This document shows positions 15,955 to 45,538 of a stretch of DNA of 64,000 nucleotides, in pieces. This DNA is from Jiella avicenniae. GTDB lineage: Bacteria; Pseudomonadota; Alphaproteobacteria; Rhizobiales; Rhizobiaceae. The notes under the pieces were generated by a model. It saw nothing but the letters and a program-made list of their open reading frames with translations, ran no database searches and was not told where the DNA came from. Position 1 is the first letter of the stretch; each line of letters opens with the position of its first letter. The position numbers and the translations under genes were made by a program. The DNA is taken from positions 372,001 through 436,000 of the forward strand of contig NZ_JAJUWU010000003.1 in NCBI RefSeq assembly GCF_021390325.1. The letters run 5' to 3'.

Positions 15955-15970
15955 TCGCCGGCCTCTTCGC

Positions 15971-16005: not shown

Positions 16006-16028
16006 CGGAAGTCTGAAGGAAGTGCCGG

Positions 16029-17818: not shown

Positions 17819-17828
17819 GGAAAAACCG

Positions 17829-18677
17829 ATGCAAGCTGCGACCCTTCCCACGCCCGCTCCGACGCCGTCGCTCGTGGCGCCACGCGCCGGCGAATTCGAC
17901 GCGCGGATCCTTGCGAACGATCCCGTCAACGCCGAGTACCGGCTGATGACGGTCGCGGTGCCGGACGGCTCGGCGAATGCCCGGCCCGGTCAATTCTTCC
18001 AGATCCTCTGCCCCCACAGCGGCGCCCTGCAGCCGTTCTTCCGCCGACCGATGAGCATCTATCGCATCGAGCCCGAGGCGGGGCGGCTGTCGTTCCTCTA
18101 CAAGGTCACCGGCACCGGCACCCGCACCATGGCAGAGCTCGACCCCGGCGCCTCGATCAACCTTTTCGGCCCGCTCGGCAACGGCTTCTCGCTGCCGAAG
18201 GACGGCGCGCCGATCGCCCTTCTCGGCCGCGGCGTCGGCCTCGCCACCATGGCCCCGCTGGTCTCCCATGCCCGCGAGGCCGGTCACGCCGTCACCGCCA
18301 TCCTCAGTGCCCGGACGCCGGAACTGGTGATGTCGAAGGACGAGTTCCTGGAAGCCGGAGCCCGCGTCATGACCGTCACCGATTCGGAAGGAACCTCGGC
18401 GGTCGAGAACGTCGAGAACATGCTGCATGCGCTGCACGGCGAGGGCCGCCTCGGCGCCCTCTATGTCTGCGGCTCGAACCGGCTGATGCTGGCGGCGCAA
18501 CGGGTCTCCCGCCGCCTCGGTGTGTTCGGCGAGGCTGCGCTGGAGCAGCAGATGGCCTGCGGCGTCGGCATGTGCTTCTGCTGCGTCCGACCGTTCCGTC
18601 AGGGCGATGAGATCGTCCACCGCCGGGTCTGCAGCGAAGGCCCGGTCTTCCCCCTGCTGGAGGCGCTCGAATGGTAG
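17829..18677 (+). CDS. pyrK: Dihydroorotate dehydrogenase electron-transfer subunit (PyrK type)
   Basis: FAD and [2Fe-2S] subunit (282 aa) that links type 1B dihydroorotate dehydrogenase to NAD(H). It has the flavin motif RRPMS (about 72-76), an NAD-binding region GRGVGLATMAPL, and the diagnostic C-terminal cluster C244-x4-C249-x2-C252-x15-C268. It is somewhat longer at the N terminus than typical PyrK. GAGGAAA lies before the ATG. Its end overlaps the pyrD start by seven bases. A PyrK partner is uncommon in alphaproteobacteria, whose biosynthetic enzyme is normally the quinone-linked class 2. Confidence 0.88.
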   Translation: MQAATLPTPAPTPSLVAPRAGEFDARILANDPVNAEYRLMTVAVPDGSANARPGQFFQILCPHSGALQPFFRRPMSIYRIEPEAGRLSFLYKVTGTGTRTMAELDPGASINLFGPLGNGFSLPKDGAPIALLGRGVGLATMAPLVSHAREAGHAVTAILSARTPELVMSKDEFLEAGARVMTVTDSEGTSAVENVENMLHALHGEGRLGALYVCGSNRLMLAAQRVSRRLGVFGEAALEQQMACGVGMCFCCVRPFRQGDEIVHRRVCSEGPVFPLLEALEW

Positions 18678-19612
18678 ACCTCTCGGTCGACTGCGGCGGC
18701 ATCCGCCTCGCCAATCCGGTGATGCCGGCCTCCGGCACCTTCGCGTCCGAGCTCGCCGAGATCATCGCGCTCAAACGCCTCGGCGCCTTCGTCACCAAGA
18801 CCGTCACCCCCGGCAAGCGCCAGGGCAATCCGACGCCGCGCGTCTCCGAGGTTCCCGGCGGCATGCTGAATTCGATCGGCATCCCCTCGAAGGGCGTCGA
18901 TGCCTTCGTCGCCGAGACCATCCCGCTCTACGCCAATTTCGACGTGCCGCTCGTCGTCTCGATCTCCGCCGACACGCCGGACGGCTTCGCCGACATCTGC
19001 CGCCGCGTCAGCGTGCCGGGCGTCGCGGCGGTCGAGGTCAACATCTCCTGCCCGAACATCGAGGACGACGGGCGGGCCTTCGCGATGCGGCCGGAGACCA
19101 CCCTCGCCGTCATGCGCAAGCTGCGCCAGGCGACCGATCTGCCGCTCTGGGCGAAACTGACTCCCAACACAGGCGAGATGCCGGCCGTCGCCGAGGCGGC
19201 CGCGGCGGGCGGCGCCGACGCGCTGGTCGTCGCCAACACCATTCTCGCCATGAGCGTCGACATCCGCACCCGCCGCGCCAGCCTCGGCCGGGTCATGGGC
19301 GGGCTGTCCGGGCCGGCGGTCAAGCCGATCATCCTGCGCATGGCCTATCAGTGCGTGCGCGCCGTCGACATTCCGGTCATCGGCTGCGGCGGCATCATGA
19401 CCGCCGCGGACGCGCTGGAATATCTGATCGTCGGCTGCCGGGCCGTGCAGGTCGGCACCGCCACCTTCGTTCACCCCGGCGCGATGCTCACCGTCATCGA
19501 CGGGCTGGAGGACTACTGCCGGCAGAACGGGATCGAGCGCATCGCCGACCTCACCGGAACGCTGAGCGCCGAGGCCCACGACGCCTCGCTGGAATGGGAA
19601 GCCATCGCGTGA
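18671..19612 (+). CDS. pyrD: Dihydroorotate dehydrogenase, class 1B catalytic subunit
   Basis: FMN-dependent dehydrogenase (313 aa) interconverting dihydroorotate and orotate. The class 1 features are ASGTFASE, KTVTPGKRQGNPTPR, GGMLNSIGIPSKG and NISCPN with the catalytic cysteine at 127; class 2 enzymes have serine there. C-terminal FMN phosphate loops are IGCGGIMTA and VGTATF. Coupled to the PyrK-type subunit, it can work with NAD, and in organisms that ferment orotate this enzyme type runs in the catabolic direction. It overlaps the next hydrolase gene in GTGA. Confidence 0.9.
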   Translation: MVDLSVDCGGIRLANPVMPASGTFASELAEIIALKRLGAFVTKTVTPGKRQGNPTPRVSEVPGGMLNSIGIPSKGVDAFVAETIPLYANFDVPLVVSISADTPDGFADICRRVSVPGVAAVEVNISCPNIEDDGRAFAMRPETTLAVMRKLRQATDLPLWAKLTPNTGEMPAVAEAAAAGGADALVVANTILAMSVDIRTRRASLGRVMGGLSGPAVKPIILRMAYQCVRAVDIPVIGCGGIMTAADALEYLIVGCRAVQVGTATFVHPGAMLTVIDGLEDYCRQNGIERIADLTGTLSAEAHDASLEWEAIA

Positions 19613-32155: not shown

Positions 32156-32983
32156 TCAGGTGATCCGCTCGATGCTCGCCGCGATCTCGCCCGGCTCGAA
32201 GACCTTCTTCCAGTCGTCGCGCATCAGCATCGGCTTGCCGAATTCGATCGCCTTGTTGCAGGCATCGGAAAACACGCCGTCGACCTCCTCGAAGATCACC
32301 GCGCCGAGGATGTTCATGTGGCCGAGCAGGAAGTCGCGGGCGCATTCGCGCGGCACGCCGGTCTTGATCACCTCCTCCATCGCCTCGCGCATGACGACGA
32401 GGAGCGAGGCACAGACCGTCTCCGACAGGCCCGGCTCGAGATAGGCCATCTGCTCGACGGTGACCCGGTGCGTGCGGCAGACCGGCGCATAGATCGCCCG
32501 CGCCACCTCGTCGCCGATCGCATAGTGCTCGTCCGGCCCCTGCATCAGGGCGTTGACCACCGCCTGCTCGGCGGCGATGCCGCCGAAATGGTCGTTGCGG
32601 CCTTCCTCCGTCGTCTCCTTGGTGAAGATCGTCGGATGGCAGGGATGGGTGACGAAATAGGTGATGTCGGCGCGCTCCGGCAGATGGCCGGCGAAGGGCG
32701 CGGCGGCGTCGAGAATGACGACGATCGTGCCGGGGGCGACCTTCGGAACGACCATCCCGGCCACCTTGCCGATCGCCGTGTCGGGCACCGCGAGCACGAC
32801 CACCTCCGCCCCGTCGAGCGCCGCGTCCGGTTCGACGCAGTCGACGCCGACGGCCTCTTTCAACCGCGCCTGCCCGGCCGGCATGACCTCGACGTGCCGC
32901 ACGTCGAAATCGGTCTTGGCCAGGTTCTTCGACAGCCGAACCCCCATCTTTCCGCCGGCACCGAACAGCGCAATGCTCGTCAT
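32156..32983 (-). CDS. apnO: D-apionate oxidoisomerase-like protein (ApnO type)
   Basis: A 275-aa protein with an N-terminal Rossmann fold (IALFGAGGKMGVRLSKNL, glycines at 8-14) and a C-terminal helical domain of the phosphogluconate-dehydrogenase-like type. THPCHPTIF and EPGLSETVCASLL carry likely metal and catalytic residues. The sequence resembles ApnO, which oxidises and isomerises D-apionate to 3-oxo-isoapionate. Presence of a RuBisCO-like protein and an ApsD-like dehydrogenase nearby supports this. The start has GGGGAGAGA upstream. Promoter: TTGACA (33055-33060, minus strand) and TATCTC, 16 bp apart. Another sugar-acid oxidoreductase remains possible. Confidence 0.7.
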   Translation of the reverse strand: MTSIALFGAGGKMGVRLSKNLAKTDFDVRHVEVMPAGQARLKEAVGVDCVEPDAALDGAEVVVLAVPDTAIGKVAGMVVPKVAPGTIVVILDAAAPFAGHLPERADITYFVTHPCHPTIFTKETTEEGRNDHFGGIAAEQAVVNALMQGPDEHYAIGDEVARAIYAPVCRTHRVTVEQMAYLEPGLSETVCASLLVVMREAMEEVIKTGVPRECARDFLLGHMNILGAVIFEEVDGVFSDACNKAIEFGKPMLMRDDWKKVFEPGEIAASIERIT

Positions 32984-33017
32984 CGCAATCTCTCCCCTCG
33001 CCACCCGAAGGGGCGGC

Positions 33018-33060
33018 ATCAACTGGTATGATGAGATAACGATTGAAGAGACGATGTCAA
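33018..33060 (-). promoter_or_regulatory. Promoter and CTGGTAT operator of the ApnO-like gene
   Basis: On the minus strand TTGACA (33060-33055) is followed after 16 bp by TATCTC. Just downstream lies the 12-mer that reads ATCAACTGGTAT on the plus strand (33018-33029), nearly the same as the element at the RuBisCO-like promoter. The position over the transcript start suits repression by a GntR protein. Confidence 0.55.
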
Positions 33061-33151
33061 TTCGGCTTCCGTGCTGGCTCAGACCTGGAACAGACGACCG
33101 TACCCACTCACGCAGCGTTGAAAAACCCAACAAGCTGGGTAAACTGTGACG

Positions 33152-33382
33152 ATGATTACGGTGCTCCGTTCCGGCGCCCTGCGCGTCGTCATTTTCACGG
33201 ACGATCATCTGCCGGCACACGTGCATGTGTTCGGCGATGCAGAAGCGAAAATCGATATCTCCGGCTCGGAGCCCCGACTGATTTCGAACTCGATGCGGCA
33301 TGGCGAACTGCGCAGGGCGAGCGCGCTGGTCGCGGATCGACAAGCGTTTCTTCTCGAAAAATGGAGAGAGCTCCATGGCTGA
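33152..33382 (+). CDS. DUF4160 family small protein
   Basis: A 76-aa protein with the DUF4160 core, FTDDHLPAHVHVFGDAEAKI, in which the acidic and histidine residues are characteristic. A GTG two codons earlier (33146) is an alternative start. A small inverted repeat ACCCA-ACAAGC-TGGGT (33125-33140) precedes it and may be an operator. It overlaps the following DUF2442 gene by eight bases. Base composition is visibly less GC-rich than the neighbours, which suggests transfer. The pair is often found together, with a suspected but unproven toxin-antitoxin-like role. Confidence 0.75.
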   Translation: MITVLRSGALRVVIFTDDHLPAHVHVFGDAEAKIDISGSEPRLISNSMRHGELRRASALVADRQAFLLEKWRELHG

Positions 33383-33788
33383 ATTCGAGTTTCCGGAGGC
33401 GGACGTGGAAACGGCCATCCGTCGTGCCGAAGATGACAAATCCTCACGGCCGGAACCGCTGGACGTCCGCTATGATTCTGCTTCTGGCCGGGTCATCGTG
33501 GAATTCACCAATGGTTCGGCGTTCATGGTGCCGGCACGATCACTGCAGGGCTTGCAGCACGCCTCGGACGAAGAGTTGGCGGATGTCGAACTCGTGGGCA
33601 GCTACGGCCTTCATTGGGAAAAGCTCGATACGGACTTCACCATCCCCGGCCTGATGGCGGGTCTATTCGGAACGGCTCGTTACATGGCGGAGATCCAGTC
33701 CAAAGGGGGAATGTCCCGCTCGCCTGCCAAGACCGCGGCCGCCCGCCGAAATGGCAGGAAAGGCGGCCGACCCCAGAAGACGGCGTGA
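33375..33788 (+). CDS. DUF2442 family protein
   Basis: A 137-aa protein with the DUF2442 core (VRYDSASGRVIVEFTNGSAF, then ELVGSYGLHWEKLDTDFTIP) and a basic C-terminal tail, AARRNGRKGGRPQK, like that of DNA-binding antitoxins. GGAGAGAG precedes ATG 33375, inside the end of the DUF4160 gene. The two form a small unit that interrupts the sugar-acid genes and is not obviously connected with them. Confidence 0.78.
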   Translation: MAEFEFPEADVETAIRRAEDDKSSRPEPLDVRYDSASGRVIVEFTNGSAFMVPARSLQGLQHASDEELADVELVGSYGLHWEKLDTDFTIPGLMAGLFGTARYMAEIQSKGGMSRSPAKTAAARRNGRKGGRPQKTA

Positions 33789-33823
33789 CCCGACGAATGA
33801 GGAACTCGGACCCTCCGACGATC

Positions 33824-34576
33824 TTACGTCCCCGCCTCTGTCGGCCCCTCGCTCCGGGCGTAAAGCTCGAGCGAGCGGTCGAGATGGTCGCGCATCGTCG
33901 CCACCGCCCCTTCGGCGTCGTGGGCGGCGATGCGGTCGACGATGCGCGCGTGCTCGGCCAGGGTGATCTCCTCCTTGCCGGACCAGTGCAGCAGCGCGGT
34001 GTGGTACTCGAACAGCCAGCGCAGCATCGCCACCGAGACGGCGGCGATGATCGGATTGTCGGCGATTTCGGCGATGCGGGCGTGGAACGCCATGTCGGTC
34101 TGGATGAAGGGCACGGGATCGGTGCCGAGCAGCGCGCGCTGGCGGGCGACGAGGTCCCGCAGCTCCGCGACGTCGCCCTCCGTTGCCTTCTCGGCCGCGA
34201 GCCGAACGATGCCGAGTTCGAACATCCGCCGCGCCTGCTTGAGGTGCTCGAGATTGGACGGCACGGCGTCGAGCAGCAGCCGGGCGATCTCGTCCGAGCG
34301 GTCGAGGACGGTGCCGGCGGTGATTTCGTTCACCCGGCTGCGCTCGCCGTGGCTGATGGAGATCAGGCCGGAATTGTGCAGCGACTGCAGCGCCTCGCGC
34401 ACCGCCGGGCGGCCGACGCCGAAGCGCTCCATCAGCGCCCGTTCCGACGGCATCGCATCGCCGGGCTTCAACGCACCGGTCCGAATCATCTGGCGCAGCC
34501 GCGCGAGCACCTGGTCCGACAGTTTCCGGCGAACGATCTTGTCCCCCTCGGGGCCTGGGGAGAGTTGCGACGCCAC
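33824..34576 (-). CDS. GntR-family regulator, NanR-like
   Basis: A 250-aa FCD-type GntR protein whose sequence follows E. coli NanR along its length: RRKLSDQVLARLRQMI, MPSERALMERFGVGRPAVRE, HGERSRVNEITAGTV, then IQTDMAFHARIAEIADNPI in the effector domain. NanR binds GGTATA repeats, and CTGGTAT elements occur at the RuBisCO-like and ApnO-like promoters. GTG 34576 has GAGGAAAG upstream. It is likely the repressor of the apionate-type genes rather than of sialic acid genes, none of which are present. Confidence 0.88.
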   Translation of the reverse strand: MASQLSPGPEGDKIVRRKLSDQVLARLRQMIRTGALKPGDAMPSERALMERFGVGRPAVREALQSLHNSGLISISHGERSRVNEITAGTVLDRSDEIARLLLDAVPSNLEHLKQARRMFELGIVRLAAEKATEGDVAELRDLVARQRALLGTDPVPFIQTDMAFHARIAEIADNPIIAAVSVAMLRWLFEYHTALLHWSGKEEITLAEHARIVDRIAAHDAEGAVATMRDHLDRSLELYARSEGPTEAGT

Positions 34577-34749
34577 GGGCTTTCCTCGAATGCGCTTCGG
34601 CCGGCCGACGGTTTCTCGGACCAGTCATGGGGTTTCATCCACGAAGCGGCGCGGCGGTCAAGTTTGACGATGCGGCACCCGCCCGGCGTCAGTTGCGCGA
34701 CGCCTCCCCCGAGCGTTGCTCCATCGGCGTGAAGGGACCAGCCGCCCGC

Positions 34750-35769
34750 TCACAGATCCGCGGGCCGGACCGTCTGCCCGGTCGCGGCCGAGCGATAGGC
34801 CGCCTCGACCAGGGCGAGGGTCTTCAGATTGTCCCGGCCCGAAGTCTCGGGCTCCCGGCCGGCGGCGATGCAGTCGACGAAATGCCGCTGGATGATCGAT
34901 ACGCTCTCCTGGATGTTGTGCCACGGTTTCTCGGCCCACGGGAGGAGCGGCGGTTCGACGTCGGCAATGCTCTCGCCGCCCTTCGTCTGCACCGTGAGCC
35001 GATAGCCGGCATCGAGGCGGAGCGTCCCCTCGCTGCCGTCGATCTCGAGAAGCGTCTGGGGAAATGTCTCCGGCTGGCGCCGCGTCGCGTAGGAACAGTC
35101 GACGACGCTGCTAGCCCCTTGCGAATGCTGCAGCAGCATCGTCGCGACGTCCTCGCCGCGGATCTGCGGGTTGACGCGTTTCGTCGCGGCCGACAGCCGC
35201 TCGACGTCGCCGAAGAAGGCGCGGGCGATGTCGAGGATGTGGATGCCGAGATCCTCGATGATGAAGCGCTCGCCCTCGGCGAGATAGGGCTGGCCGGAAA
35301 AGACGTCGTAGCCCGAGCGGAACGAGATGCGCCCGAAGAAGGGCGCGCCGATCGCCCCTTCGCGCACCGTCTCGATCGCCCGGCGCACGGCCGACTGCCA
35401 ACGGAAGTTCTCGTGCACCATCAGGACGCGCCCGGCGCTCTCCACCGCCTCGACCATGGCTCGGGCATCCGCCATCGTCGCCGCGAAGGGCTTCTGGCAA
35501 ATCACGTCGAGGCCCGCCGCGGCCGCCATCTCCACAAGCGGCCGATGGCTCGGCACGGTGGTCGCGATGTCGACGAAATCGAGCTGCTCGGCCTCCAGCA
35601 TCGCTGCGGCATCGCGATAGGTGCGCGCGATCGCGAACCGCTCGGCGGTGTCTGACAGTCTCGTCCCGTCCTGGTCGCACAGGGCGACGATGTCGGCACC
35701 CTCGATCCCGGACCACGCGTGAAGCTGGTTCTGGGCGAAAAAGCCGCAGCCGATCAGCGCGCCTTTCAT
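34750..35769 (-). CDS. apsD: Gfo/Idh/MocA oxidoreductase, D-apiose dehydrogenase-like
   Basis: A 339-aa NAD-dependent sugar dehydrogenase. It has the Rossmann loop ALIGCGFFAQNQ (4-15), the CQKPFA lysine (K93) and the active-site segment EDLGIHILDI with the histidine. FRSGYDVFSGQPYLAEGERF and VVDCSYATR resemble ApsD, which oxidises D-apiose to apionolactone. An ApnO-like enzyme and a RuBisCO-like protein nearby support that reading. Other sugar dehydrogenases of the family remain possible. The gene has its own 336-bp upstream region, with TTGACA on the minus strand at 35986-35991. Confidence 0.72.
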   Translation of the reverse strand: MKGALIGCGFFAQNQLHAWSGIEGADIVALCDQDGTRLSDTAERFAIARTYRDAAAMLEAEQLDFVDIATTVPSHRPLVEMAAAAGLDVICQKPFAATMADARAMVEAVESAGRVLMVHENFRWQSAVRRAIETVREGAIGAPFFGRISFRSGYDVFSGQPYLAEGERFIIEDLGIHILDIARAFFGDVERLSAATKRVNPQIRGEDVATMLLQHSQGASSVVDCSYATRRQPETFPQTLLEIDGSEGTLRLDAGYRLTVQTKGGESIADVEPPLLPWAEKPWHNIQESVSIIQRHFVDCIAAGREPETSGRDNLKTLALVEAAYRSAATGQTVRPADL

Positions 35770-36105: not shown

Positions 36106-36984
36106 TCACGCGCCGAAGCGCGGCTCCGGCACGCCGCGGATGCCGAGATCGTGGATGGCGAAGAGGCTGCCGCGCATCACGCCGTCGCCGGGAAAGCGGG
36201 GCAGAGGCGGCTTCGCCATCGAGGTGACGTAGAGAATGTCGAGGTCGGGGCCGCCGAACATCACGCTGGTGACCTTCTTGACCGGCATGTCGATGATCCT
36301 CTCCACGGCGCCGTCGGGCGTGTAGCGGACCAGCTTGCCGGCATAGACGAGCGCGCTCCATAGGCAGCCCTCGGCATCGACCGTCGCGCCGTCGGCCGCG
36401 CCGCCGCCCGTCGTGTCGACCCTGGCGAAGGTGCGCCGGTTGGAGATCGTGCCGGTCCCGGCGTCGAAGTCGTAGGCCCAGATCTCGCCGGTCCACGTAT
36501 CGGTGAAGTAGAAGGTCCCGTCGTCCGGGGCGAAGCACGGACCGTTCGAGCAGATGATGTCGGTGTCGACTTTGGTGACGGAAAAATCCGGATCGAGCCG
36601 GTAGAGCGCGCCGAAAGGCCCCTCCTCCATCGTGTCCATGGAGCCGGCGAAGAACCGGCCCTTGCGGTCGACCTTGCCGTCGTTGATGCGGTTGGCCGGC
36701 CGGTCCGGCTCCGGATCGTGGATGAGATCGACGTCGCCGGTCCTGAAATCGAGGGTGTGGAAGCCGCCCTGCAGCGAGACGATCGCGCCCTCCCCGTCCT
36801 TTCTCAGAGCCATCGAGCCGATCTTTTCCGGCACGTCCCAGGCGCGCAGCTCGCGGCCGTCCGCCGTCGTGCGGAACACCCGGCCGTCGAAGCTGTCGAT
36901 GAAGTACAGCCGCTCTTGGCCGACGTCCCAGAGCGGGCCCTCGCCCAGCGTCGTCTTCACGTCGAGAAGAACTTCGATGCGCAT
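36106..36984 (-). CDS. SMP-30/gluconolactonase-family lactonase (copy A)
   Basis: A 292-aa six-bladed beta-propeller lactonase. Metal ligands are in LGEGPLWD (glutamate at about 14), the NRINDGKVDRKGRF asparagine and SNGPCFAPDDGTFYFTDT. It opens sugar lactones formed by dehydrogenases. The next gene encodes a paralogue of almost equal length, so two lactones or two steps may be served. Both are at the end of the sugar ABC operon. They could also hydrolyse the apionolactone expected from the neighbouring Gfo/Idh enzyme. Confidence 0.92.
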   Translation of the reverse strand: MRIEVLLDVKTTLGEGPLWDVGQERLYFIDSFDGRVFRTTADGRELRAWDVPEKIGSMALRKDGEGAIVSLQGGFHTLDFRTGDVDLIHDPEPDRPANRINDGKVDRKGRFFAGSMDTMEEGPFGALYRLDPDFSVTKVDTDIICSNGPCFAPDDGTFYFTDTWTGEIWAYDFDAGTGTISNRRTFARVDTTGGGAADGATVDAEGCLWSALVYAGKLVRYTPDGAVERIIDMPVKKVTSVMFGGPDLDILYVTSMAKPPLPRFPGDGVMRGSLFAIHDLGIRGVPEPRFGA

Positions 36985-36995
36985 CGCATTTGCTC

Positions 36996-37868
36996 CTATC
37001 CGAGAAAGCGTGGTTCCGGCAGGCCCCGCACGCCGAGGCCGATGACCGCGAACAGCCCGCCCGCCTCGCGGTGGCGGTGGTAGCTGCCCTGGTATGGCCG
37101 AGCCATGGAGGTGACGAAGACGACGTCGAGATCGGGACCGCCGAAGGTGAGACTGGTGGTGGATTCGACCGGCAGGTTGACGATCCGGTCGATCACACCG
37201 TTCGGATCGAAGCGCACGAGCCGGCCCGAATAGACCTCGACGCTCCAGACGAAGCCCTCGGCGTCGACCGTCGCGCCGTCCGGCAGGCCGCGCATTCCCT
37301 CGAAGCTCGCGAAGACGCGCCGCGAGCGGACCGCGCCGGTCGCCGTGTCGTAGTCATAGGCGTAGATGACGCGCCGGCCGGTGTCAGCGAAGTAGAGCGT
37401 CTTGCCGTCGGGGCTGAAGCAGGGGCCGTTGGAACAGACGATGCCGCGGTCGAGCTCGTGCACCGAAAGGTCCGGATCGAGCCGGAACAGCGCGCCGACC
37501 GGATCGCTCTCCTCGAAATCCATCGACCCGGCGAGAAAGCGGCCCTGACGGTCGACCTTGCCGTCGTTGAGCCGTGGGCGCAGCTCGCCCGGTTGGGTTT
37601 CGCAGATCCGCTCGACGGCGCCGGTGGCAAAGTCGAGGGTGAAGAAGCCCGAGCGCAGGGCGACGATCGCGCCGCCCTTTTCTCGGAGCGCCAGCGAACC
37701 GATCGGCTCCGGCACCGGCCAGCTCTTGCGCTCGCCCCCGCGCGCGTCGCAGGAATGGACCGCGGGCCCGTAGGAATCGATCCAGTAGAGCCTCTGTTCG
37801 TCGACGTCCCAGAGCGGGCCTTCGCCGAGGCTGTCCCGCTGGTCAGTGAGGAGTTCGATCCGCAGCAT
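36996..37868 (-). CDS. SMP-30/gluconolactonase-family lactonase (copy B)
   Basis: A 290-aa beta-propeller lactonase and tandem paralogue of copy A. Shared landmarks include LGEGPLWDVDEQRLYWIDS, LNDGKVDRQGRFLAGSMD and SNGPCFSPDGKTLYFADT, and the C-terminal YLG-like end (GLPEPRF) is common to both. Only 11 bases separate the genes. The copies differ throughout, which speaks for an old duplication with separate specificities. Confidence 0.92.
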   Translation of the reverse strand: MLRIELLTDQRDSLGEGPLWDVDEQRLYWIDSYGPAVHSCDARGGERKSWPVPEPIGSLALREKGGAIVALRSGFFTLDFATGAVERICETQPGELRPRLNDGKVDRQGRFLAGSMDFEESDPVGALFRLDPDLSVHELDRGIVCSNGPCFSPDGKTLYFADTGRRVIYAYDYDTATGAVRSRRVFASFEGMRGLPDGATVDAEGFVWSVEVYSGRLVRFDPNGVIDRIVNLPVESTTSLTFGGPDLDVVFVTSMARPYQGSYHRHREAGGLFAVIGLGVRGLPEPRFLG

Positions 37869-37884
37869 CGGCCATCTCCCCGCC

Positions 37885-38817
37885 TCAGAAGCCGACCTGA
37901 TCGCCGCCCTTCAGCGACAGGATCCGGCGTGCCTCGTCGGGGGTCGCGACTTCGAGACCGAGCCCCTCGATGATCTTGCGCACCATCGTGACCTGCTCGG
38001 CATTCGAGGTCGCGAGCTTGCCCTTGCCCGCCCACAGGCTGTCCTCCAGCCCGACGCGGACGTTGCCGCCGAGGGCAGCCGACTGTGCAGCGATCCTGAG
38101 CTGGCTCGCCCCGGCGCCGAGCACCGACCAGCGGAAGTCCGCCCCGAACAGTCGGTCGGCGGTGCGCTTCATGTGCTGGACGTCTTCGGGATGTGTGCCG
38201 ATGCCGCCGAGAAGGCCGAACACCGACTGGACGAAGAACGGCGCCTTGACGAGCCCGCGGTCGGCGAAATGCGCCAGATTGTAGAGATGGGCGATGTCGT
38301 AGCACTCGAACTCGAAGCGCGTGCCGTTGTCGTAGCAGGTCTCGAGAATGTACTCGATGTCCTTGAACGAGTTGCGGAAGACGAGGTCTTTGGTGGCTTC
38401 CAGATGCGGCTTTTCCCAGTCGAACTTGAAGCTGTCGTACTTCTGGACGAGGTGATAGAGGCCGAAATTGATCGAGCCCATGTTGAGCGAGGCGACTTCC
38501 GGTTTGAACTGCGCCGCCGGGCGGACCCGCTCCTCGACCTTCATGTAGGGGCTGCCGCCGGTGGTGATGTTGATCGCCGCATCGGTCCCCTGTTTGATGC
38601 GCGGCAGGAAGCGGGCGAAGGCCTCCGGCGTCTGGTCCGGCTTGCCGGTCTCGGGATCGCGGGCATGCAGATGCAGGATGGCCGCGCCCGCCTCGGCGGC
38701 ACCGATCGCCGCCTCGGTGATCTCGTCCGGTGTGATCGGCAGATGCGGCGACATGGTCGGCGTATGGATCGCGCCGGTCACCGCGCAGGTGATGATGACT
38801 TTGCCTTGGGTGCTCAT
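37885..38817 (-). CDS. BKACE family enzyme (DUF849, beta-keto acid cleavage)
   Basis: A 310-aa zinc-dependent TIM-barrel enzyme of the 3-keto-5-aminohexanoate cleavage family. These enzymes condense a beta-keto acid with acetyl-CoA and split it to acetoacetate and a new acyl-CoA. Zinc ligands are in ILHLHARDPETG near residue 46-52 and the glutamate of VRVGLEDS near 255. The upstream 3-dehydrogenase would produce such a beta-keto acid. The carnitine route uses the same pair, but here the partners are sugar genes, so a sugar-derived substrate is proposed. Confidence 0.88.
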   Translation of the reverse strand: MSTQGKVIITCAVTGAIHTPTMSPHLPITPDEITEAAIGAAEAGAAILHLHARDPETGKPDQTPEAFARFLPRIKQGTDAAINITTGGSPYMKVEERVRPAAQFKPEVASLNMGSINFGLYHLVQKYDSFKFDWEKPHLEATKDLVFRNSFKDIEYILETCYDNGTRFEFECYDIAHLYNLAHFADRGLVKAPFFVQSVFGLLGGIGTHPEDVQHMKRTADRLFGADFRWSVLGAGASQLRIAAQSAALGGNVRVGLEDSLWAGKGKLATSNAEQVTMVRKIIEGLGLEVATPDEARRILSLKGGDQVGF

Positions 38818-38834
38818 GGGAGTCTCGTCCTGTT

Positions 38835-39794
38835 TCAGCGGCCGGCGTCGTCGTCGGCGCGTTTCTTGTGGGCGGACAGCGCCATCAGGCGCCGGTCCCG
38901 CCAGAGCTGGCGCTCGGCCAGCCGATCCTCGGGCAGCCGGTCGCGCCGCGACTTGAGAACCGTGTCGAGCACCGGCCCCGACCAGTCGACGCGCTCCTTC
39001 ATCCCCTCGAACAGGCCGCGATAGAGGCCTTGATAGCGGGCGACGTAATCCTTCACGCCGCCGGGAGCGTTGAGATCGATCGTCTCGAACGGCCCCATGA
39101 ACGACCAGCGCAGCGCCAGCCCCTCGGCGATGCCGGCATCGACGTCCTCCGGCGAGGCGTAGCCGCCGGCGACCAGCCGGAACGCCTCCTCCAGGAGCGC
39201 GCCCTGCAGGCGGTTCATGATGAAGCCGTCGATCTCGCGCGCCATGACGAGGGGCGTCTGTCCGATGGCCCGCAGCAGGGCTTCGCCCCGCGACATCGCC
39301 TCGGCCGTCGTCCAGGGAGCGGGCACGAGCTCGACCGCCGGCACGAGATAAGGCGGATTGATCGGATGGGCGACGAGGCAGCGCGAACGGCCGGGCAGCC
39401 CCTCGGAGATCGCCGAGGGCAGAAGCGCCGAACTGGAGCTGGCGAGGATCGTTTCGGGCGCGGCGATGGCGTCGAGCCGGGCGAAGGTCTCGCGCTTCAC
39501 CGCGATCACCTCCGGTCCGCATTCCTGCACCCAATCCGCGCCGTCGAGCGCGTCTTCGATCTCCGCGTGGCAGCTGAGGCGGGACAGCGTCTCGGCCGGC
39601 GTCGAACCGAGCAGCAGATCGTTCGCGGCGAGATCGTCGGCCACCGTGCTGATGAAGGTCACCGCCTGTTCCGGCACGGCGGGATCGGGATCGAACAGCC
39701 GCGCCTTGCAGCCGGCGCGCGCGAAGGTGATCGCCCAGGCGCGGCCGATGAGGCCGGAGCCGACGATCGCGACCGTGGTCTGCGAGGGCACCAT
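38835..39794 (-). CDS. 3-hydroxyacyl-CoA dehydrogenase family, lambda-crystallin/L-gulonate 3-dehydrogenase type
   Basis: A 319-aa NAD-dependent dehydrogenase. Rossmann loop VAIVGSGLIGRAW (8-20), SSSSALLPS, the catalytic histidine in CLVAHPINPPYLVPAVELV and a C-terminal helical domain with EGLALRWSFMGPFETIDLN. The sequence follows mammalian lambda-crystallin (L-gulonate 3-dehydrogenase) through to QLWRDRRLMAL, better than fatty-acid enzymes. L-carnitine dehydrogenase is the other relative. ATG 39794 shares one base with the SDR stop (TGATG). The product, a 3-keto acid, would suit the BKACE enzyme downstream. Confidence 0.87.
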   Translation of the reverse strand: MVPSQTTVAIVGSGLIGRAWAITFARAGCKARLFDPDPAVPEQAVTFISTVADDLAANDLLLGSTPAETLSRLSCHAEIEDALDGADWVQECGPEVIAVKRETFARLDAIAAPETILASSSSALLPSAISEGLPGRSRCLVAHPINPPYLVPAVELVPAPWTTAEAMSRGEALLRAIGQTPLVMAREIDGFIMNRLQGALLEEAFRLVAGGYASPEDVDAGIAEGLALRWSFMGPFETIDLNAPGGVKDYVARYQGLYRGLFEGMKERVDWSGPVLDTVLKSRRDRLPEDRLAERQLWRDRRLMALSAHKKRADDDAGR

Positions 39795-40588
39795 CACAGC
39801 GTCTCCACGTTGCCGTCGACGCCGAGCGACTGGCCGGACAGATTGCGGCCGGCATTCGACAGGAGGAAGGCCGTCGTTGCCGCCACGTCTTCCGGCGTCA
39901 CCATCCGGCGCAGCGAGATCTTCTCGAGATAGCGCGCCTCCATCTCCTCGTAGGGAACGCCAAGCTGCACGGCCCGGTCGCGGATGACGCCCTCCATCCG
40001 CGGGCCCGACACGATGCCGGGCAGGATCGCGTTGACGCGGATCCCGGCGGGTCCGAGTTCCTTGGCGAGACTCTGGGTGAAGCCGATGACGCCGAACTTT
40101 GCCGAGGCGTAGGGCGTGCGGTAGGCATAGCCGTGTCGGCCGGCCGCCGAGGACATGTTGACGATCGCCCCCCCGCCGGCCGCCTTGAGAAGCGGCACGG
40201 CCAGCCGCGTGCACAGGAACTGGCCGGTCAGGCCGATGTCGAGGCAGCGGCGCCAGTCGGCGGGCGAGATCTCCTCGACGCCCCCGGTCGGCCCGGCGAT
40301 GCCGGCATTGTTGACCAGCGCGTCGAGACCGCCGAGACCGTCGGCGACGGCGGCGAAGAACCGTTCCACCCCAGCTTCGTCGGAGACGTCCGCCTCGACC
40401 GCGAGACAGCCGGGAAGCGCGGCCCGGGCCGCCTCCAGTGCCGCCGGCGAGATGTCGCAGATCGCCAGCCGGCAGCCCATCGCGTGAAGCAGCCTGGCGA
40501 TGGCGAGGCCGATGCCCGAGGCTCCGGCCGTCACGACGACGCGTTGGCCGGACAGTCCGGCGAGGATGTTGGGATCTTGATCTGCCAT
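39794..40588 (-). CDS. Short-chain dehydrogenase/reductase
   Basis: A 264-aa classical SDR. Cofactor motif TAGASGIG (20-27), NNAG, catalytic serine in NMSSAAG and YASAK with the active tyrosine and lysine. IRVNAILPG and a C-terminal SGQSLGVDG are typical. ATG 40588 is preferred to GTG 40609, which lies inside the permease gene; AGGA is upstream. It probably oxidises a sugar to a lactone, or a sugar acid, before the lactonases and the 3-dehydrogenase. Confidence 0.92.
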   Translation of the reverse strand: MADQDPNILAGLSGQRVVVTAGASGIGLAIARLLHAMGCRLAICDISPAALEAARAALPGCLAVEADVSDEAGVERFFAAVADGLGGLDALVNNAGIAGPTGGVEEISPADWRRCLDIGLTGQFLCTRLAVPLLKAAGGGAIVNMSSAAGRHGYAYRTPYASAKFGVIGFTQSLAKELGPAGIRVNAILPGIVSGPRMEGVIRDRAVQLGVPYEEMEARYLEKISLRRMVTPEDVAATTAFLLSNAGRNLSGQSLGVDGNVETL

Positions 40589-40589
40589 G

Positions 40590-42701
40590 TCAGGAGGTCC
40601 TGCGTTCACGAAGGGCGATGACCGCGGCGAGGACGACGCAGCCGAAGAGGATGGCCCGGAAGGCGTAGGGCAAGGTGGTGCCGGCCAGCAGCGTCTGCAG
40701 CGCCGTGAGCAGCAGCGCCCCGCCGAACATGCCGAGATAGTGTCCGCGGCCGCCGGTGATCAGCGCGCCGCCGACCACCACGACGGCGATCGAGGGCAGC
40801 AGATAGTCGTCGCCCATGCCGAGGCTGGCCTGGCCCGAAAAGCCGGTGAGGAGAATGCCGACCAGCGCCGCGCAGAGCGCCGACAAGACGTAGACCGCGA
40901 TGATCACCCTGCCCGTGCGGACGCCCGAAAGACGTGCCGCCTCCAGACTGTTGCCGATGGCGTAGACGCGGCGGCCGAAGCTGGTGCGTCCGAGCAGCAC
41001 CGTCGCGCCGATCACGAAGGCGGCGAGGAAGACGAGCACCGGCGTCACGCCGCCGAGATAGCCGGTCATGAACCAGCGCAGGGCGGGCGAGGCGAAGCCG
41101 GAGGGCGTGCCGTTCGAATAGAGCAGCGCGGCCCCCTGAAGGATGCCGTTCATCGCGAGCGTCACGACGATCGGCGACAGGCCGAGCATCACCACCCCGA
41201 TCCCGTTCGCCAGGCCGATCGCCGCCGCGACGGCGAAGACGAGCGGCAGCGCATAGACGAGCGCCGGGTCGGAGCCGCGCACCAGGCCGGCGAGGAGGAT
41301 GCCCGACAGGGCGATCGTCCAGGGCAGCGACAGGTCGAGGCCGCCGGTGAGGATCACCGCCCCCTGCCCGAGTGCCAGGATCGCCAGGAACGTCGAGAGG
41401 ACGAAGAGCGCGTTCCAGTAGCTGAAGTTGGTCAGCACGTTGCCGAGGACGAACTGCGTCGCGACCAGCACCAGCGCGAGTGCGACATAGGCCGGCGCGG
41501 CGTAACGGATCGTCTCGGCGTTGCGCTCAAGGAAGCCCGGGACGGGCGTTGCGGCCCCCGCTTCTGCGCCGCGCCGGGCGGCGAAGGCGAGCCGGTGGTC
41601 GACCTTCGGGCGCTGGGTCACGAGGAGGCCGGCGCTGCGTGCCCTGAGGGCGGCGAGGCCTTCGCGGATCTGTTCGGCAAGGACGGAGTCCCGCGACAGC
41701 GAGGCGAAGAGCACGGCGAGAAGCAGGACGCCGCCTTCGGCCACGGTCGAGAAATAGGCCGAGACGTTGAGGGCGAGGAGGATGTTGACGACGATCATCA
41801 GCGTGAAGGCGCCGAACACGCTGCCGACCGGGCCGCCCTTGCCGCCGCCGAGGCGCGTCCCGCCGATCACCACCGCCGCGAAGATCGACAGGAGCAGCGA
41901 ATTGCCGACCAGCGGGTCGCCCGAACCGGTCTGCGCGCTGATGAAGACACCGGCCAGTCCGTAGAGTCCGCCGGCGATGACGTAGGTGGCGAAGCGCACC
42001 CAGGGCACCGAGATGCCGATCGCCGCCGCCGAGGCCGGATCGCTGCCCGATGCGTAGAGGGCGAGGCCGTAGCGCGTGCGTTTGAGCCAGGCCCAGAGCA
42101 GCAAGACGACGCCGAGGAGCAGGATCGGCGCCGGGAGGAGGTTCGGCACGGCATCGCCCATGTAGAAGGCGCCGAGGCTCGGGGCGACGAAGCCGCCCGG
42201 CTGCTCGAGGACCAGCAGCGTGCCGCCCTGGACGATGAACATCGTCGACAGCGTCACGACGATCGGCTGCAGCCGCAGAAACGCGATGAAGAGGCCGTTG
42301 AACGCGCCGACGAGCATGCCGACGGCGATCCCGACGGCGGTCCATTCGACGACCGAGGCCTCCATGTCGGTCATGCTCATATTCGCGGCGAGAACCGCGT
42401 TGACGAGCGAGATCACCGCGCCGGCGGACAGATCGAAGCCGCCGGAGAGGATGACCAGCGTCTGGCCGACCGCGGCCAGCGCCAGCGTCGTGCCGCCGCT
42501 GGCGAGAAAGGAGACGTCGAAATAGGTGATCGGACCGGGGCTGATCCAGTCGGTCACGAGGAATAAAAGCGCGAAGACGACGATCGCGACCAGCGTCGCC
42601 CGGCTGCGCGCGGCGCTGCGTCCGATCCCGGCGTACCACGCCGGGGCCGCGTTCGGTGCTCGCGTCGGGCGGTTTTCGGTGACGACGGCGGCCTGGTTCA
42701 A
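40590..42701 (-). CDS. Sugar ABC transporter permease, two RbsC-type domains fused
   Basis: A single 703-aa reading frame holds two complete RbsC-like permeases. The first spans about residues 28-345 (VGQTLVILSGGFDLSAGAVISL, VIGGTRLGGGKGG). A hydrophilic linker of about 50 aa follows. The second spans about 395-700 (LGQGAVILTGGLDLSLPWTIAL, VVGGALITGGRGHYLG). Usually these are separate genes or a homodimer. The start is TTG 42701, whose TTGA overlaps the ATPase stop. One chain would form the whole transmembrane pore for the adjacent ATPase and sugar-binding protein. Confidence 0.88.
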   Translation of the reverse strand: MNQAAVVTENRPTRAPNAAPAWYAGIGRSAARSRATLVAIVVFALLFLVTDWISPGPITYFDVSFLASGGTTLALAAVGQTLVILSGGFDLSAGAVISLVNAVLAANMSMTDMEASVVEWTAVGIAVGMLVGAFNGLFIAFLRLQPIVVTLSTMFIVQGGTLLVLEQPGGFVAPSLGAFYMGDAVPNLLPAPILLLGVVLLLWAWLKRTRYGLALYASGSDPASAAAIGISVPWVRFATYVIAGGLYGLAGVFISAQTGSGDPLVGNSLLLSIFAAVVIGGTRLGGGKGGPVGSVFGAFTLMIVVNILLALNVSAYFSTVAEGGVLLLAVLFASLSRDSVLAEQIREGLAALRARSAGLLVTQRPKVDHRLAFAARRGAEAGAATPVPGFLERNAETIRYAAPAYVALALVLVATQFVLGNVLTNFSYWNALFVLSTFLAILALGQGAVILTGGLDLSLPWTIALSGILLAGLVRGSDPALVYALPLVFAVAAAIGLANGIGVVMLGLSPIVVTLAMNGILQGAALLYSNGTPSGFASPALRWFMTGYLGGVTPVLVFLAAFVIGATVLLGRTSFGRRVYAIGNSLEAARLSGVRTGRVIIAVYVLSALCAALVGILLTGFSGQASLGMGDDYLLPSIAVVVVGGALITGGRGHYLGMFGGALLLTALQTLLAGTTLPYAFRAILFGCVVLAAVIALRERRTS

Positions 42702-44251
42702 TGGACCATCTCCGGCCTTGACGCGACGACCGGATCGGCGCCGCCGAGCGCCGCCGCCATCACCGCAATTTCGCTGATCGCGTCTCGTTCGAGCCGGGCG
42801 ACGATCTCGCCTTCGTAGAGCACCGAGACGCGGTCCGAGAGATGGACCAGCTCCGGCACCTCGGTGGAGTGGAACAGCACCGCTCCGCCGGCATCGGCGA
42901 AATCGCGCATCAGCTGGTAGAGCTGATGCTTGGTCCCGACGTCGATGCCGCGCGTCGGGTCGAAGAGCAGGAGGATCCGGCTCTCGGCCAGGATCCACTT
43001 GGCGATGGCGATCTTCTGCTGGTTGCCGCCCGAAAACGAGCCGGCCGGCATGTAGATCGCCCGATCGTCCACCTCGACGGCGCGAAACGCGGCGAGCGTT
43101 GCCGCGCGCTCCGCCTCCCGATCGAGCAGTCCGTGCCGCGAAAACCTGGCGATGGTCGGCAGCGTCGCGTTCTTGCTGCCGTCGAGCTTCAGGAACAGGC
43201 CCTCGCTTTTGCGGTCTTCCGGCAGGAGGCCGATCCGCAGCGAGGGATGGAGGGCATCGGCCGGCGAGGACAGCCGCACCGCGCGCCCGTCGACCCGCAA
43301 CTCGCCGTCGAGGATCGGCGTCGCGCCGAAGCAGGCGCGGAACAAAGCGACCTGCCCCATTCCCTGGAGCCCGGCGACGCCGTGGATCTCGCCGGGCCGG
43401 AGGTCGAGGTCGATGCCGCGCAGCTTGGCGCCGGCCGAAACGCCTCTCAGTTCGAGCATGGGATCGGGCACCGGCGCGCCGGACGGCGCGGGCCTGGGTG
43501 GAAATGTCTTCGAGATCGAACGGCCGATGATTTTTTCCACCACCGCCGCGTCGGTGATGTCGTCGACGTCGCAGCTGACGATGTGGCGGCCGTTGCGCAG
43601 GATCGTCAGCCGGTCGCAGAACTCGCGCACCTCCGGCATCCGATGCGAGATGAACAGGATGGTGACGCCCCGGCGTCTGGCGTCGGCGACGATCCGCCCC
43701 AGCCATGCGACGTCGCCGCCGGCGAGCGCCGAGGTCGGCTCGTCGAGGAGGAGGATCCGCGGCTCGCGGAAGAGCGCCCGGGCGATCTCGATCTTCTGGC
43801 GCTCGGCGAGATCGAGCGAGGCGGCGAGCGCCTGCGGATCGATCGACACGCCGAGCCTGTCGAAATGCTCGGCGACCGCCCGTCCCGCCGCCCGCTTGCG
43901 CATCGTCCCGGCAAGGCCGACCGGCGCATAGGGCATGATCATGTTTTCCAGGACCGTCAGATCCGGAACCAGGGTCAGCTCCTGAAAGGCGGTCTGGATG
44001 CCGGCCCGGTGGGCGTCGCGCGGCCTGCGCAGGCGCATCGGACGGCCGTCGACATGGATCGTCCCGGCATCCGGCTCGATCAGTCCCGACAACAGCTTCA
44101 TCGTCGTCGACTTGCCGGCGCCGTTCTCGCCGAGCAGCGCATGGACGGTGCCGGGAGCGACCGTGAAGGATACGTCGTCGAGCGCCCTGGTGGCGCCGAA
44201 CGCCTTCGACAGACCCTCGATCGCGATCGCCGCTGGCCGATCGTCGGACAT
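42698..44251 (-). CDS. Sugar ABC transporter ATPase (RbsA type, two domains)
   Basis: A 517-aa ATPase with two nucleotide-binding domains. The first has Walker A GENGAGKST, an unusual signature (LDLAERQKIEIAR) and Walker B LLLDEPTSAL. In the second, Walker A is degenerate (AGLQGMGQVA), the signature SGGNQQKIAIAK is good, and Walker B reads LLLFDPTRG, with aspartate where the catalytic glutamate is expected. Such asymmetry is known in RbsA-type proteins. It lies between the binding-protein and the fused permease genes. Confidence 0.94.
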   Translation of the reverse strand: MSDDRPAAIAIEGLSKAFGATRALDDVSFTVAPGTVHALLGENGAGKSTTMKLLSGLIEPDAGTIHVDGRPMRLRRPRDAHRAGIQTAFQELTLVPDLTVLENMIMPYAPVGLAGTMRKRAAGRAVAEHFDRLGVSIDPQALAASLDLAERQKIEIARALFREPRILLLDEPTSALAGGDVAWLGRIVADARRRGVTILFISHRMPEVREFCDRLTILRNGRHIVSCDVDDITDAAVVEKIIGRSISKTFPPRPAPSGAPVPDPMLELRGVSAGAKLRGIDLDLRPGEIHGVAGLQGMGQVALFRACFGATPILDGELRVDGRAVRLSSPADALHPSLRIGLLPEDRKSEGLFLKLDGSKNATLPTIARFSRHGLLDREAERAATLAAFRAVEVDDRAIYMPAGSFSGGNQQKIAIAKWILAESRILLLFDPTRGIDVGTKHQLYQLMRDFADAGGAVLFHSTEVPELVHLSDRVSVLYEGEIVARLERDAISEIAVMAAALGGADPVVASRPEMVH

Positions 44252-44291
44252 GCTCAACCCTCGTCGTCTGAATGAGATGCGCCTAGCGTGG

Positions 44292-44322
44292 CGCCGCCGG
44301 CGGCTCGATCGTGCCGGCGGCG
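44292..44322 (-). terminator. GC hairpin between sugar-binding-protein and ATPase genes
   Basis: A perfect 10-bp stem, CGCCGCCGGC with GCCGGCGGCG and an 11-base loop, begins six bases past the binding-protein stop on the transcribed strand. There is no T tail. The position matches hairpins after other binding-protein genes here, suggesting mRNA stabilisation or partial termination. Confidence 0.55.
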
Positions 44323-44328
44323 GCCCGC

Positions 44329-45444
44329 TCAGGTCTCGGGCTGGCCGACCAGCGCCGCGTTCAGGCCGAGCTGCGGCAACTGATCGGAGAAGATCGAGCC
44401 GAACCAGCCGGGATTGGCGACGATCGACGGCTTGAAGGTGTTGCACCCGCTCTTCATCTCTTCCCAGCTGCCGGTCTCGCAGAGCTGGATCGTCTCGTTG
44501 GTGACGAGCGGCAGCGGCAGGGTCGTGTGATGCGGCACGTCCTTGCCCTCGATCATGTCGACCGCGAGCTTCAGCGCGAGCGCCCCCGAATAGGGCGGCG
44601 AAGCGTAGGAGATGCGCGGTGCGCCGAGCGGCGCATAGGGGCTGCTCGCGCCCTCGACCTCGGTCCCCTTCGCCAGCGCCTGGATGCGGCCGCCATTGGA
44701 GCCCTCGCCGGCGCAGGGGAGCAGCTCGTCGTCGGTCTTGCCCGCTTCCAGCTGCATGGCATTGGCGGTGTAACAGCCGACCTGCATCCACAAGCCGTCG
44801 ATGTCGTCCCACTTGCGCGTTGCAAGAAGCTTCGACAATTCGGTGCGGGCCACCGCCTGGCTCCACATGCCGACCGCCTCGCCGACGATCTTGATGTCGG
44901 GATGCTTGGCGAAGACCTCCTTCGCCGCCTTGGTCCGGGCGATGTCGACCGAGGTCCCCGGAACGCCGGTCACCAGGACGACGTCGCCCTTGCCGCCGAG
45001 CTTGTCGGCCAGCCATTCGGCCGTCTTGCGACCCGCCTCCTCCTGGTCGATCGTGACGTTGTAGGCGCAGGGCTCGGTGATCTCCGCGTCGTAGGCGACG
45101 ACCTTCACGCCCTTCGAACAGGCATTCTTGACCACCTGGTTCAGGGCCGTCGGCGAAATCGGGTAGACCACGATCGCCTCCGCCCCGGCCTGCACCATTG
45201 CGTTGATCTGCTGGATCTGGCGCTGGGCGTTGGGGCCGGCGACCTGCACCTGCAGATCCACCTTGTCCGCATAGTCCTTCGAGGCGGCGAGCGCCTTGAC
45301 CATGTTGGCCGCCTCGGCCTGCCAGTCATTGCCGATGTAGCTCATCGACAGAAACACCTTGTGTTTTTCGACAGCCTCTCCGCTGGCCGCAAAAGCACAG
45401 GTCAGTCCGGCGGCGAGCGCCAGCGACTTCACGATCGTCGTCAT
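44329..45444 (-). CDS. Sugar ABC transporter substrate-binding protein
   Basis: Periplasmic type-1 binding protein (371 aa) of the ribose/xylose class. A signal peptide runs to about residue 24 (LALAAGLTCAFAASGEA). The mature protein has SYIGNDWQAEAANMV, NAMVQAGAEAIVVYPISPTALN and VTGVPGTSVDIARTK. Several cysteines (four or five in the mature part) are unusual for the family and could form disulfides. GGGAGGATCC precedes the ATG. It is the first gene of a nine-gene minus-strand unit. Confidence 0.94.
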   Translation of the reverse strand: MTTIVKSLALAAGLTCAFAASGEAVEKHKVFLSMSYIGNDWQAEAANMVKALAASKDYADKVDLQVQVAGPNAQRQIQQINAMVQAGAEAIVVYPISPTALNQVVKNACSKGVKVVAYDAEITEPCAYNVTIDQEEAGRKTAEWLADKLGGKGDVVLVTGVPGTSVDIARTKAAKEVFAKHPDIKIVGEAVGMWSQAVARTELSKLLATRKWDDIDGLWMQVGCYTANAMQLEAGKTDDELLPCAGEGSNGGRIQALAKGTEVEGASSPYAPLGAPRISYASPPYSGALALKLAVDMIEGKDVPHHTTLPLPLVTNETIQLCETGSWEEMKSGCNTFKPSIVANPGWFGSIFSDQLPQLGLNAALVGQPET

Positions 45445-45516: not shown

Positions 45517-45538
45517 TTGATTTTTGATCAAAAATCAA
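45517..45538. promoter_or_regulatory. Perfect 22-bp palindrome, GntR operator candidate
   Basis: TTGATTTTTGA is followed directly by its reverse complement TCAAAAATCAA. The site sits in the 166-bp divergent region, 72 bp before the sugar-binding-protein start and 72 bp before the GntR start, exactly midway. Symmetry, AT content and the TGATCA centre fit an FCD-type GntR site controlling both directions. Confidence 0.8.

Follow-up and report, generated by a model that had tools for sequence, protein, structure and literature searches.

A conserved operon of Jiella avicenniae, located on the minus strand at positions 36106-45444 of a 64,000-nucleotide stretch of its genome (contig NZ_JAJUWU010000003.1, positions 372,001 to 436,000; hereafter the window), probably encodes a version of the oxidative deoxyribonate pathway that is equipped with an ABC importer. 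This reading builds on the gene content of the operon, on its conservation in other genomes, on the subfamily kinship of its enzymes and on a shared operator core, all of which were directly observed. The beta-keto cleavage route itself is known, and it is the importer type and an extra dehydrogenase that differ. With this assignment, a conserved but unlabelled operon would be linked to deoxyribonate or deoxyribonolactone as a substrate that can be tested, and to an ABC importer for this compound; 2-deoxyribonate is an oxidised form of the sugar of DNA.

Composition and conservation of the operon

The eight tightly packed genes encode a CUT2-type importer, a short-chain dehydrogenase/reductase (SDR), a 3HCDH-family dehydrogenase (HADH), a beta-keto acid cleavage enzyme (BKACE) and two SMP-30 lactonases. 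A gap of 77 bp follows the gene of the periplasmic binding protein (SBP). Behind it, neighbouring genes overlap by 4 bp or are 1 to 17 bp apart, and because of this spacing the eight genes look like one operon. An earlier inspection of the DNA letters (the sequence-only reading) had described one operon with a sugar ABC importer, an SDR, two lactonases, an L-gulonate-3-dehydrogenase-type enzyme and a BKACE. All of these components were recovered by Pfam matches in a single minus-strand run that is largely conserved in 26 other loci. The individual features, including the divergent regulator, are as follows:

44329..45444, minus strand: CUT2-type periplasmic binding protein (SBP); PF13407 (Peripla_BP_4)
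42698..44251, minus strand: CUT2-type ABC ATPase; ABC_tran, two stretches
40590..42701, minus strand: fused double permease; BPD_transp_2, two stretches; its TTG start overlaps the ATPase stop
39794..40588, minus strand: SDR of the deoxyribonate-cluster subfamily, putative 2-deoxyaldonate 3-dehydrogenase; adh_short, with identities to counterpart loci and an SDR alignment
38835..39797, minus strand: HADH, 3HCDH-family dehydrogenase of the lambda-crystallin (presumably L-gulonate 3-dehydrogenase) type, substrate putative; 3HCDH_N and 3HCDH; 4 bp overlap with the SDR gene
37885..38817, minus strand: BKACE, beta-keto acid cleavage enzyme; PF05853, 364 bits over profile positions 1-274 of 274
36996..37868, minus strand: SMP-30 lactonase 1; SGL, 275 bits
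36106..36984, minus strand: SMP-30 lactonase 2, closely related to the lactonase found in Pseudomonas clusters of the deoxyribonate type; SGL, 269 bits
45524..46273, plus strand: GntR/FCD regulator, divergent; PF07729 and PF00392 (Pfam run from 45584); open frame from TTG, other start candidates at 45569 and 45611
45519..45536, no strand: perfect 18-bp palindrome GATTTTTGATCAAAAATC with a TGATCA core, predicted operator

For the ATPase, the top NCBIfam models were of the AraG, xylose and RbsA type and none of them reached its cut-off. BKACE passed NF053538 (551 bits, cut-off 430), its nearest solved chains were 3e49, 8rio and 8rip, and from these similarities an acetyl-CoA-dependent cleavage of a beta-keto acid is its predicted activity.

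When we searched 297 genomes of the window's order for HADH, 94 matched at 1e-40; identities among the 24 best matches, one of them that of the window itself, were 57-100%. Stretches of up to 20 kb were fetched around 20 of the places and subsequently around 16 further ones, the second set covering relatives at a greater distance as well as three sites in the own genome. Besides the window, 26 of all fetched loci carried the CUT2-type importer. These were 17 loci of the order sample, the plasmids L077, L078 and L122 (hosts Agrobacterium, Rhizobium ruizarguesonis and Phyllobacterium, respectively) and six loci from a scan with the SDR (L165, L170, L171, L176, L196, L201); two Bordetella, a Skermanella and a Bosea are among the further hosts. 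Here, we found the SDR in all 26 loci, HADH in 25, BKACE in 24 and at least one lactonase in 25. A GntR regulator scored over threshold in 23 of them and two SMP-30 copies were present in 10. The SBP of the window was 77-82% identical to those of the 17 order-sample loci. Thus, the gene unit is conserved more than expected by chance. Outside the set of 26, locus L058 holds SDR, HADH and BKACE without an importer. In wider samples, the SDR was found in 34 of 398 genomes of the phylum sample at 1e-60 and HADH in 16 of 198 genomes of the family of genome G077.

On two Rhodobacterales plasmids (L079, L080), genes for GntR, SDR, HADH and BKACE stand together with a branched-chain-amino-acid-type ABC importer, further SDRs and an alpha/beta hydrolase, which hints at sister pathways.

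Kinship to the oxidative deoxyribonate pathway

According to mutant fitness data, the use of both deoxyribose and deoxyribonate by Pseudomonas simiae depends on an SDR and a BKACE, and a lactonase is required chiefly when the substrate is deoxyribose (Price et al. 2019, PMC6365646). The purified SDR of this bacterium oxidised deoxyribonate and showed no activity on deoxyribose, and its gene cluster carries a GntR gene at the head and the palindrome GTGATCAC (PMC6365646). Since 2-deoxyribonate is a sugar acid, these fitness data contradict the novelty that the sequence-only reading, which knew of no such case, saw in a sugar-acid pathway with a BKACE. The cluster of strain WCS417 (PS417_07240 to 07265) resembles the window in its GntR regulator, its TGATCA-core palindrome, its SDR subfamily and its BKACE family. 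It differs from the window by having two MFS transporters instead of the CUT2 importer, one lactonase and no described 3HCDH-family enzyme.

For comparison, genome contigs were scanned with an SDR alignment whose first row was a Paraburkholderia SDR, and the best 80 of more than 80 loci were used. P. simiae itself was absent from these 80. Three Pseudomonas loci (L146, L153, L161) showed the gene order GntR, SDR, BKACE, SMP-30, MFS that is seen in P. simiae from PS417_07240 onwards, with one MFS gene identified, and GTGATCAC was present at least once in all seven Pseudomonas-titled loci among the best 80. Lactonase 2 of the window was 69.5, 70.5 and 70.7% identical to the lactonases of L146, L153 and L161, so that a lactonase about 70% identical to that of the window occurs in loci with the P. 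simiae gene order. Lactonase 1 reached 52-54%, and the next lactonase of the own genome was only 39% identical. In a tree of SMP-30 proteins, the three Pseudomonas lactonases fell into a largely unresolved group with rows resembling lactonase 2. Because two outgroup rows and one paralogue sat on very long branches, we took the lactonase kinship from the identities and not from the tree. The SDR of the window was 52-54% identical to the SDRs of the three Pseudomonas loci (other SDRs there 32-37%), and the BKACEs were 65-66% identical. Of the 80 loci, 65 hold a BKACE. The window likewise combines an SDR of this subfamily with a BKACE, and HADH sits between the two.

A second comparison involved the clusters of Paraburkholderia bryophila and Burkholderia phytofirmans, whose genes matter for growth on deoxyribonate and which have no close lactonase homologue (PMC6365646). 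Their likeness to the window, judged via the counterparts Paraburkholderia L117 and Caballeronia L121, consists in SDR and BKACE. Both counterparts follow the order AraC, BKACE, MFS, FabG-like reductase, SDR of P. bryophila 00640-00644, and they were 53% (SDR) and 58-59% (BKACE) identical to the window, with 59% for the BKACE of L117; the SDR of Burkholderia L116 reached 58%. The differences from the window are the AraC regulator and, in L117, an MFS transporter and a FabG-like enzyme as extra dehydrogenase. A related content was seen in six Burkholderiaceae clusters with a CUT2 importer (L081, L140, L142, L144, L152, L155), which share GntR, SDR, BKACE, HADH and SMP-30 with the window and carry GTGATCAC upstream in all five that were scanned (L140, L142, L144, L152, L155). 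They differ by another gene order and by an additional metallo-beta-lactamase-fold lactonase, and our literature search found no study of them. Two Pseudomonas loci (L157, L166) combine GTGATCAC palindromes with SDR, HADH, BKACE and MFS and gave no SMP-30 lactonase match.

The operator core was also found in loci related to the window. The motif TGATCA lies between the GntR and SBP genes in 23 of 26 loci (window included; without it L041, L042 and L053), whereas 1000 shuffles that kept base composition only gave 1.1 on average and at most 5. In narrower regions the count was 18 of 26 (shuffles: mean 0.5, maximum 4), and here the copy of the window was missed because the TTG start of the GntR frame falls inside the palindrome. 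The middle of the window palindrome reads TTGATCAA, compared with GTGATCAC in the P. simiae type, and the agreement is limited to the TGATCA core. The window thus shares the combination of a GntR/FCD regulator and a GTGATCAC-type operator in the core only, and the exact GTGATCAC occurs in both Bordetella CUT2 cassettes.

From these comparisons, we propose the following pathway. The GntR/FCD regulator would act on the TGATCA palindrome and control the operon. The importer would bring in a 2-deoxy compound with five carbons, in the simplest case the neutral 2-deoxyribonolactone, which the SMP-30 lactonases would open to 2-deoxyribonate. The SDR would oxidise C3 to yield 3-keto-2-deoxyribonate, and BKACE would convert this intermediate with acetyl-CoA to acetoacetate and glyceryl-CoA. 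Hydrolysis of glyceryl-CoA would give glycerate, which may enter glycolysis via glycerate kinase. HADH would serve as a second 3-dehydrogenase parallel to the SDR, probably for the other configuration at C3.

Several points weigh against this proposal. Every activity, the imported species and the role of HADH are deduced from homology and gene context. The model pathway is itself partly inferred, because the carbon oxidised by the P. simiae SDR was left undetermined and the cleavage step is without direct evidence (PMC6365646). We assigned the counterpart loci of P. simiae and P. bryophila by gene order and operator, and an SDR identity of about 53% may allow for another substrate. Among the best SDR-scan loci, 15 of 80 lack a BKACE (6 of the 54 loci of at least 15 kb). 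One CUT2 locus (L176) has neither HADH nor BKACE, another (L045) has no linked BKACE and carries one elsewhere in its genome (71% identical), a third (L171) has no lactonase over threshold, and the plasmid locus L123 holds SDR and BKACE without HADH or importer. As the described clusters rely on MFS transporters and contain neither a CUT2 importer nor a 3HCDH-family enzyme, the presence of HADH and the importer may point to a substrate that is related but not the same. We identified no C1 dehydrogenase for deoxyribose, and no search aimed at one was made. Glycerate kinase was found in 2 of 27 CUT2 cassettes, the window not being one of them, where the fetched stretches frequently reach no further than 6-7 kb beyond the lactonase.

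As to the importer ligand, the nearest solved chains of the SBP (4pe6, 4rs3, 5hko) scored at most about 100 bits. For CUT2 importers in general, neutral sugars or polyols are the usual cargo. With an SDR that acts on the acid, the cassette would have no evident C1 dehydrogenase, and for this reason the lactone is the simplest neutral substrate; deoxyribose or the acid are also possible as imported species.

Two dehydrogenases and competing readings

The solved chain nearest to HADH is lambda-crystallin (3ado, 240.7 bits), with which it shares the AHPxNPPY, VELVP and NRLQ stretches in the alignment, and HADH passes NF004783 (456 bits, cut-off 347). The nearest chains are labelled lambda-crystallin, which we take to be L-gulonate 3-dehydrogenase. 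This animal enzyme belongs to the same family as HADH, and we know of no BKACE partner for it. Carnitine 3-dehydrogenase models were failed by HADH (NF005716, 183 of 592 bits; NF005471, 150 of 414 bits). The SDR reached 191 bits on a glucose 1-dehydrogenase subfamily model, which is below the cut-off of 215.

To describe how the two dehydrogenases occur with BKACE, we applied identity thresholds of 55% (BKACE), 45% (SDR) and 44% (HADH) within the fetched stretches. The best 80 loci chosen by the SDR comprised 37 with BKACE and without HADH, 26 with both, 15 with neither and 2 with HADH only. Among 41 loci chosen by HADH, 28 had SDR and BKACE, two had BKACE without this SDR, one had the SDR only and 10 had neither. 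Since SDR-BKACE pairs are common and HADH-BKACE pairs exist, parallel dehydrogenases fit better than an obligatory series of C1 and then C3 oxidation, which does not amount to proof. This raises the question of why two dehydrogenases from unrelated families, each apparently supplying a BKACE, are retained together in such clusters. The neighbourhoods of three HADH-only loci (L044, L051, L075) gave no substrate hint. In a third setting (L074 on contig C8 of the own genome, L067, L069, L084), HADH stands with a CUT2-type importer and a metallo-beta-lactamase-fold lactonase and without BKACE; the Mesorhizobium ciceri locus L084 also has an annotated histidinol dehydrogenase and LacI.

Judged by its relatives, the SDR more likely oxidises an acid than C1 of a sugar, and because lactonase, SDR, BKACE and TGATCA core are kin to deoxyribonate-type loci, the substrate of the operon would more likely be a five-carbon 2-deoxy acid or lactone. 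D-3-hydroxy acids are the substrates of SDRs such as 3-hydroxybutyrate dehydrogenase, and the 3HCDH family (L-3-hydroxyacyl-CoA, L-gulonate, L-carnitine) acts on the opposite configuration. As C3 of deoxyribonate has the D configuration, HADH would suit the threo epimer. Deoxyribonate has been proposed to arise from 2-keto-3-deoxygluconate (PMC6365646), and by analogy the threo epimer could arise from 2-keto-3-deoxygalactonate and peroxide. A tentative extension of our proposal, which we regard as possible rather than probable, is a stereo-convergent scavenging route. Here, the SDR would oxidise the D-3-hydroxy epimer of 2-deoxypentonate (erythro, deoxyribonate) and HADH its L-3-hydroxy epimer (threo). 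Both reactions would yield a single beta-keto acid as BKACE substrate, and a shared route would thereby serve lactones derived from oxidised DNA as well as acids formed by peroxide damage to 2-keto-3-deoxygluconate and -galactonate. In relatives, the operon would also encode a glyceryl-CoA hydrolase and, in one Rhizobium, a nickel racemase that possibly converts L-glycerate to D-glycerate.

The sequence-only reading had placed oxidation at C1, lactone opening, oxidation at C3 and cleavage in one line. Its outline was retained (a lactone is opened, a hydroxy acid oxidised and the product cleaved by BKACE), but the C1 role given to the SDR is not supported, since it belongs to the deoxyribonate-type subfamily whose purified P. 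simiae member acts on deoxyribonate and not on deoxyribose (PMC6365646). The same observation makes it unlikely that an ordinary sugar is imported and oxidised at C1 by the SDR, that HADH then oxidises C3 of the C2-hydroxylated aldonate formed by the lactonase, and that BKACE releases a hydroxylated acetoacetate and a polyhydroxyacyl-CoA. The lambda-crystallin kinship of HADH and the usual cargo of CUT2 importers would suit such a series, but the 37 of 80 loci with SDR and BKACE and without HADH do not, and the BKACE substrates named in the literature passages at hand lack a C2 hydroxyl. For gulonate or galactonate, which the sequence-only reading had put forward for assays, nothing specific was found beyond the HADH family. 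We also give little credence to an import of 2-deoxyribose (or another 2-deoxy sugar) followed by lactone formation at C1 by the SDR, with HADH as sole C3 dehydrogenase before BKACE. This scheme would account for importer, lactonases and both dehydrogenases in one line, and the SDR score on the glucose 1-dehydrogenase model, sub-threshold as it is, points in the same direction. Against it stand the acid specificity of the P. simiae SDR and the lack of HADH in the fetched stretches of Pseudomonas L146, L153 and L161.

Another beta-hydroxy acid that is not a carbohydrate acid, such as hydroxy- or oxo-hexanoate, is quite improbable as substrate. The BKACE does pass the NCBIfam model named 3,5-dioxohexanoate:acetyl-CoA acetone transferase, and its close relative BKACE15 of Paracoccus (8rio) is reported to accept such acids. 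However, we set this name aside because the model does not discriminate, as the BKACEs of L117 and L146, both deoxyribonate-type loci, also pass it, and the sugar-type importer and the SMP-30 lactonases point to a sugar lactone. Carnitine degradation is hardly credible and was rejected. It shares with the window a 3HCDH-family dehydrogenase next to BKACE, and HADH scores 183 bits on a carnitine 3-dehydrogenase model, but this is far under the cut-off of 592. Moreover, the same genome has a separate carnitine operon, in which the dehydrogenase reaches 843 bits and is fused to a thioesterase, and carnitine leaves no place for the lactonases. The reading as an importer-equipped deoxyribonate pathway is the one we prefer over these alternatives. 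In a literature search that covered few subscription journals, we found no paper on a CUT2 importer for deoxyribonate, on a 3HCDH-family enzyme in the deoxyribonate pathway or on an identified glyceryl-CoA hydrolase.

Product side and neighbouring genes

In all four bacteria studied, glycerate kinase played an important part in the use of deoxyribonate (PMC6365646), and in the relevant passage of the GapMind paper (PMC9007349) glyceryl-CoA hydrolase is listed as unknown. In the Agrobacterium plasmid locus (L077), the genes that come next in the run code for a chemoreceptor, a glycerate kinase (PF13660, PF05161) and an enoyl-CoA hydratase/isomerase-family protein (ECH_2), which passes a 3-hydroxyisobutyryl-CoA hydrolase subfamily model (425.9 bits, cut-off 274). 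The Rhizobium locus (L078) has similarly annotated genes, with larA, larC, an adenine nucleotide alpha hydrolase and larB in between. The ECH_2-type proteins of the two loci are 68% identical, and the other 138 plasmid records stayed below 60% (best listed 54.6%). This 3-hydroxyisobutyryl-CoA-hydrolase-family gene is a candidate for the hydrolase of glyceryl-CoA listed as unknown in GapMind. Four loci from metagenome-assembled genomes (L169, L177, L180, L183; 4 of the best 80 SDR loci) also have a glycerate kinase after BKACE-SDR. The linkage of glycerate kinase to the operon is suggestive but not general. Elsewhere in the own genome, there are one MOFRL-type glycerate kinase gene, the substrate of which is putative, and one full-length ECH_2 gene. 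In L078 (Rhizobium ruizarguesonis), the lar genes and the alpha hydrolase gene occupy positions 15398-19435 ahead of glycerate kinase, and LarA fell short of the cut-off for lactate racemase (340 of 460 bits).

Downstream of the operon and on the same strand, positions 32156-35769 of the window hold genes for a Gfo/Idh/MocA protein, a second GntR/FCD regulator and a PGDH_C oxidoreductase, which gave no over-threshold matches near the compared cassettes. The Gfo/Idh/MocA gene (34750-35769) was considered as C1 dehydrogenase; it had no match of at least 90 bits in the compared loci and is probably outside the unit. The carnitine operon of the own genome (L072, G000:C24:334000-353900) lies about 28 kb before the window and consists of an AraC-type regulator and a betaine-type binding protein (both recognised by eye), a BKACE and the carnitine 3-dehydrogenase-type fusion protein.

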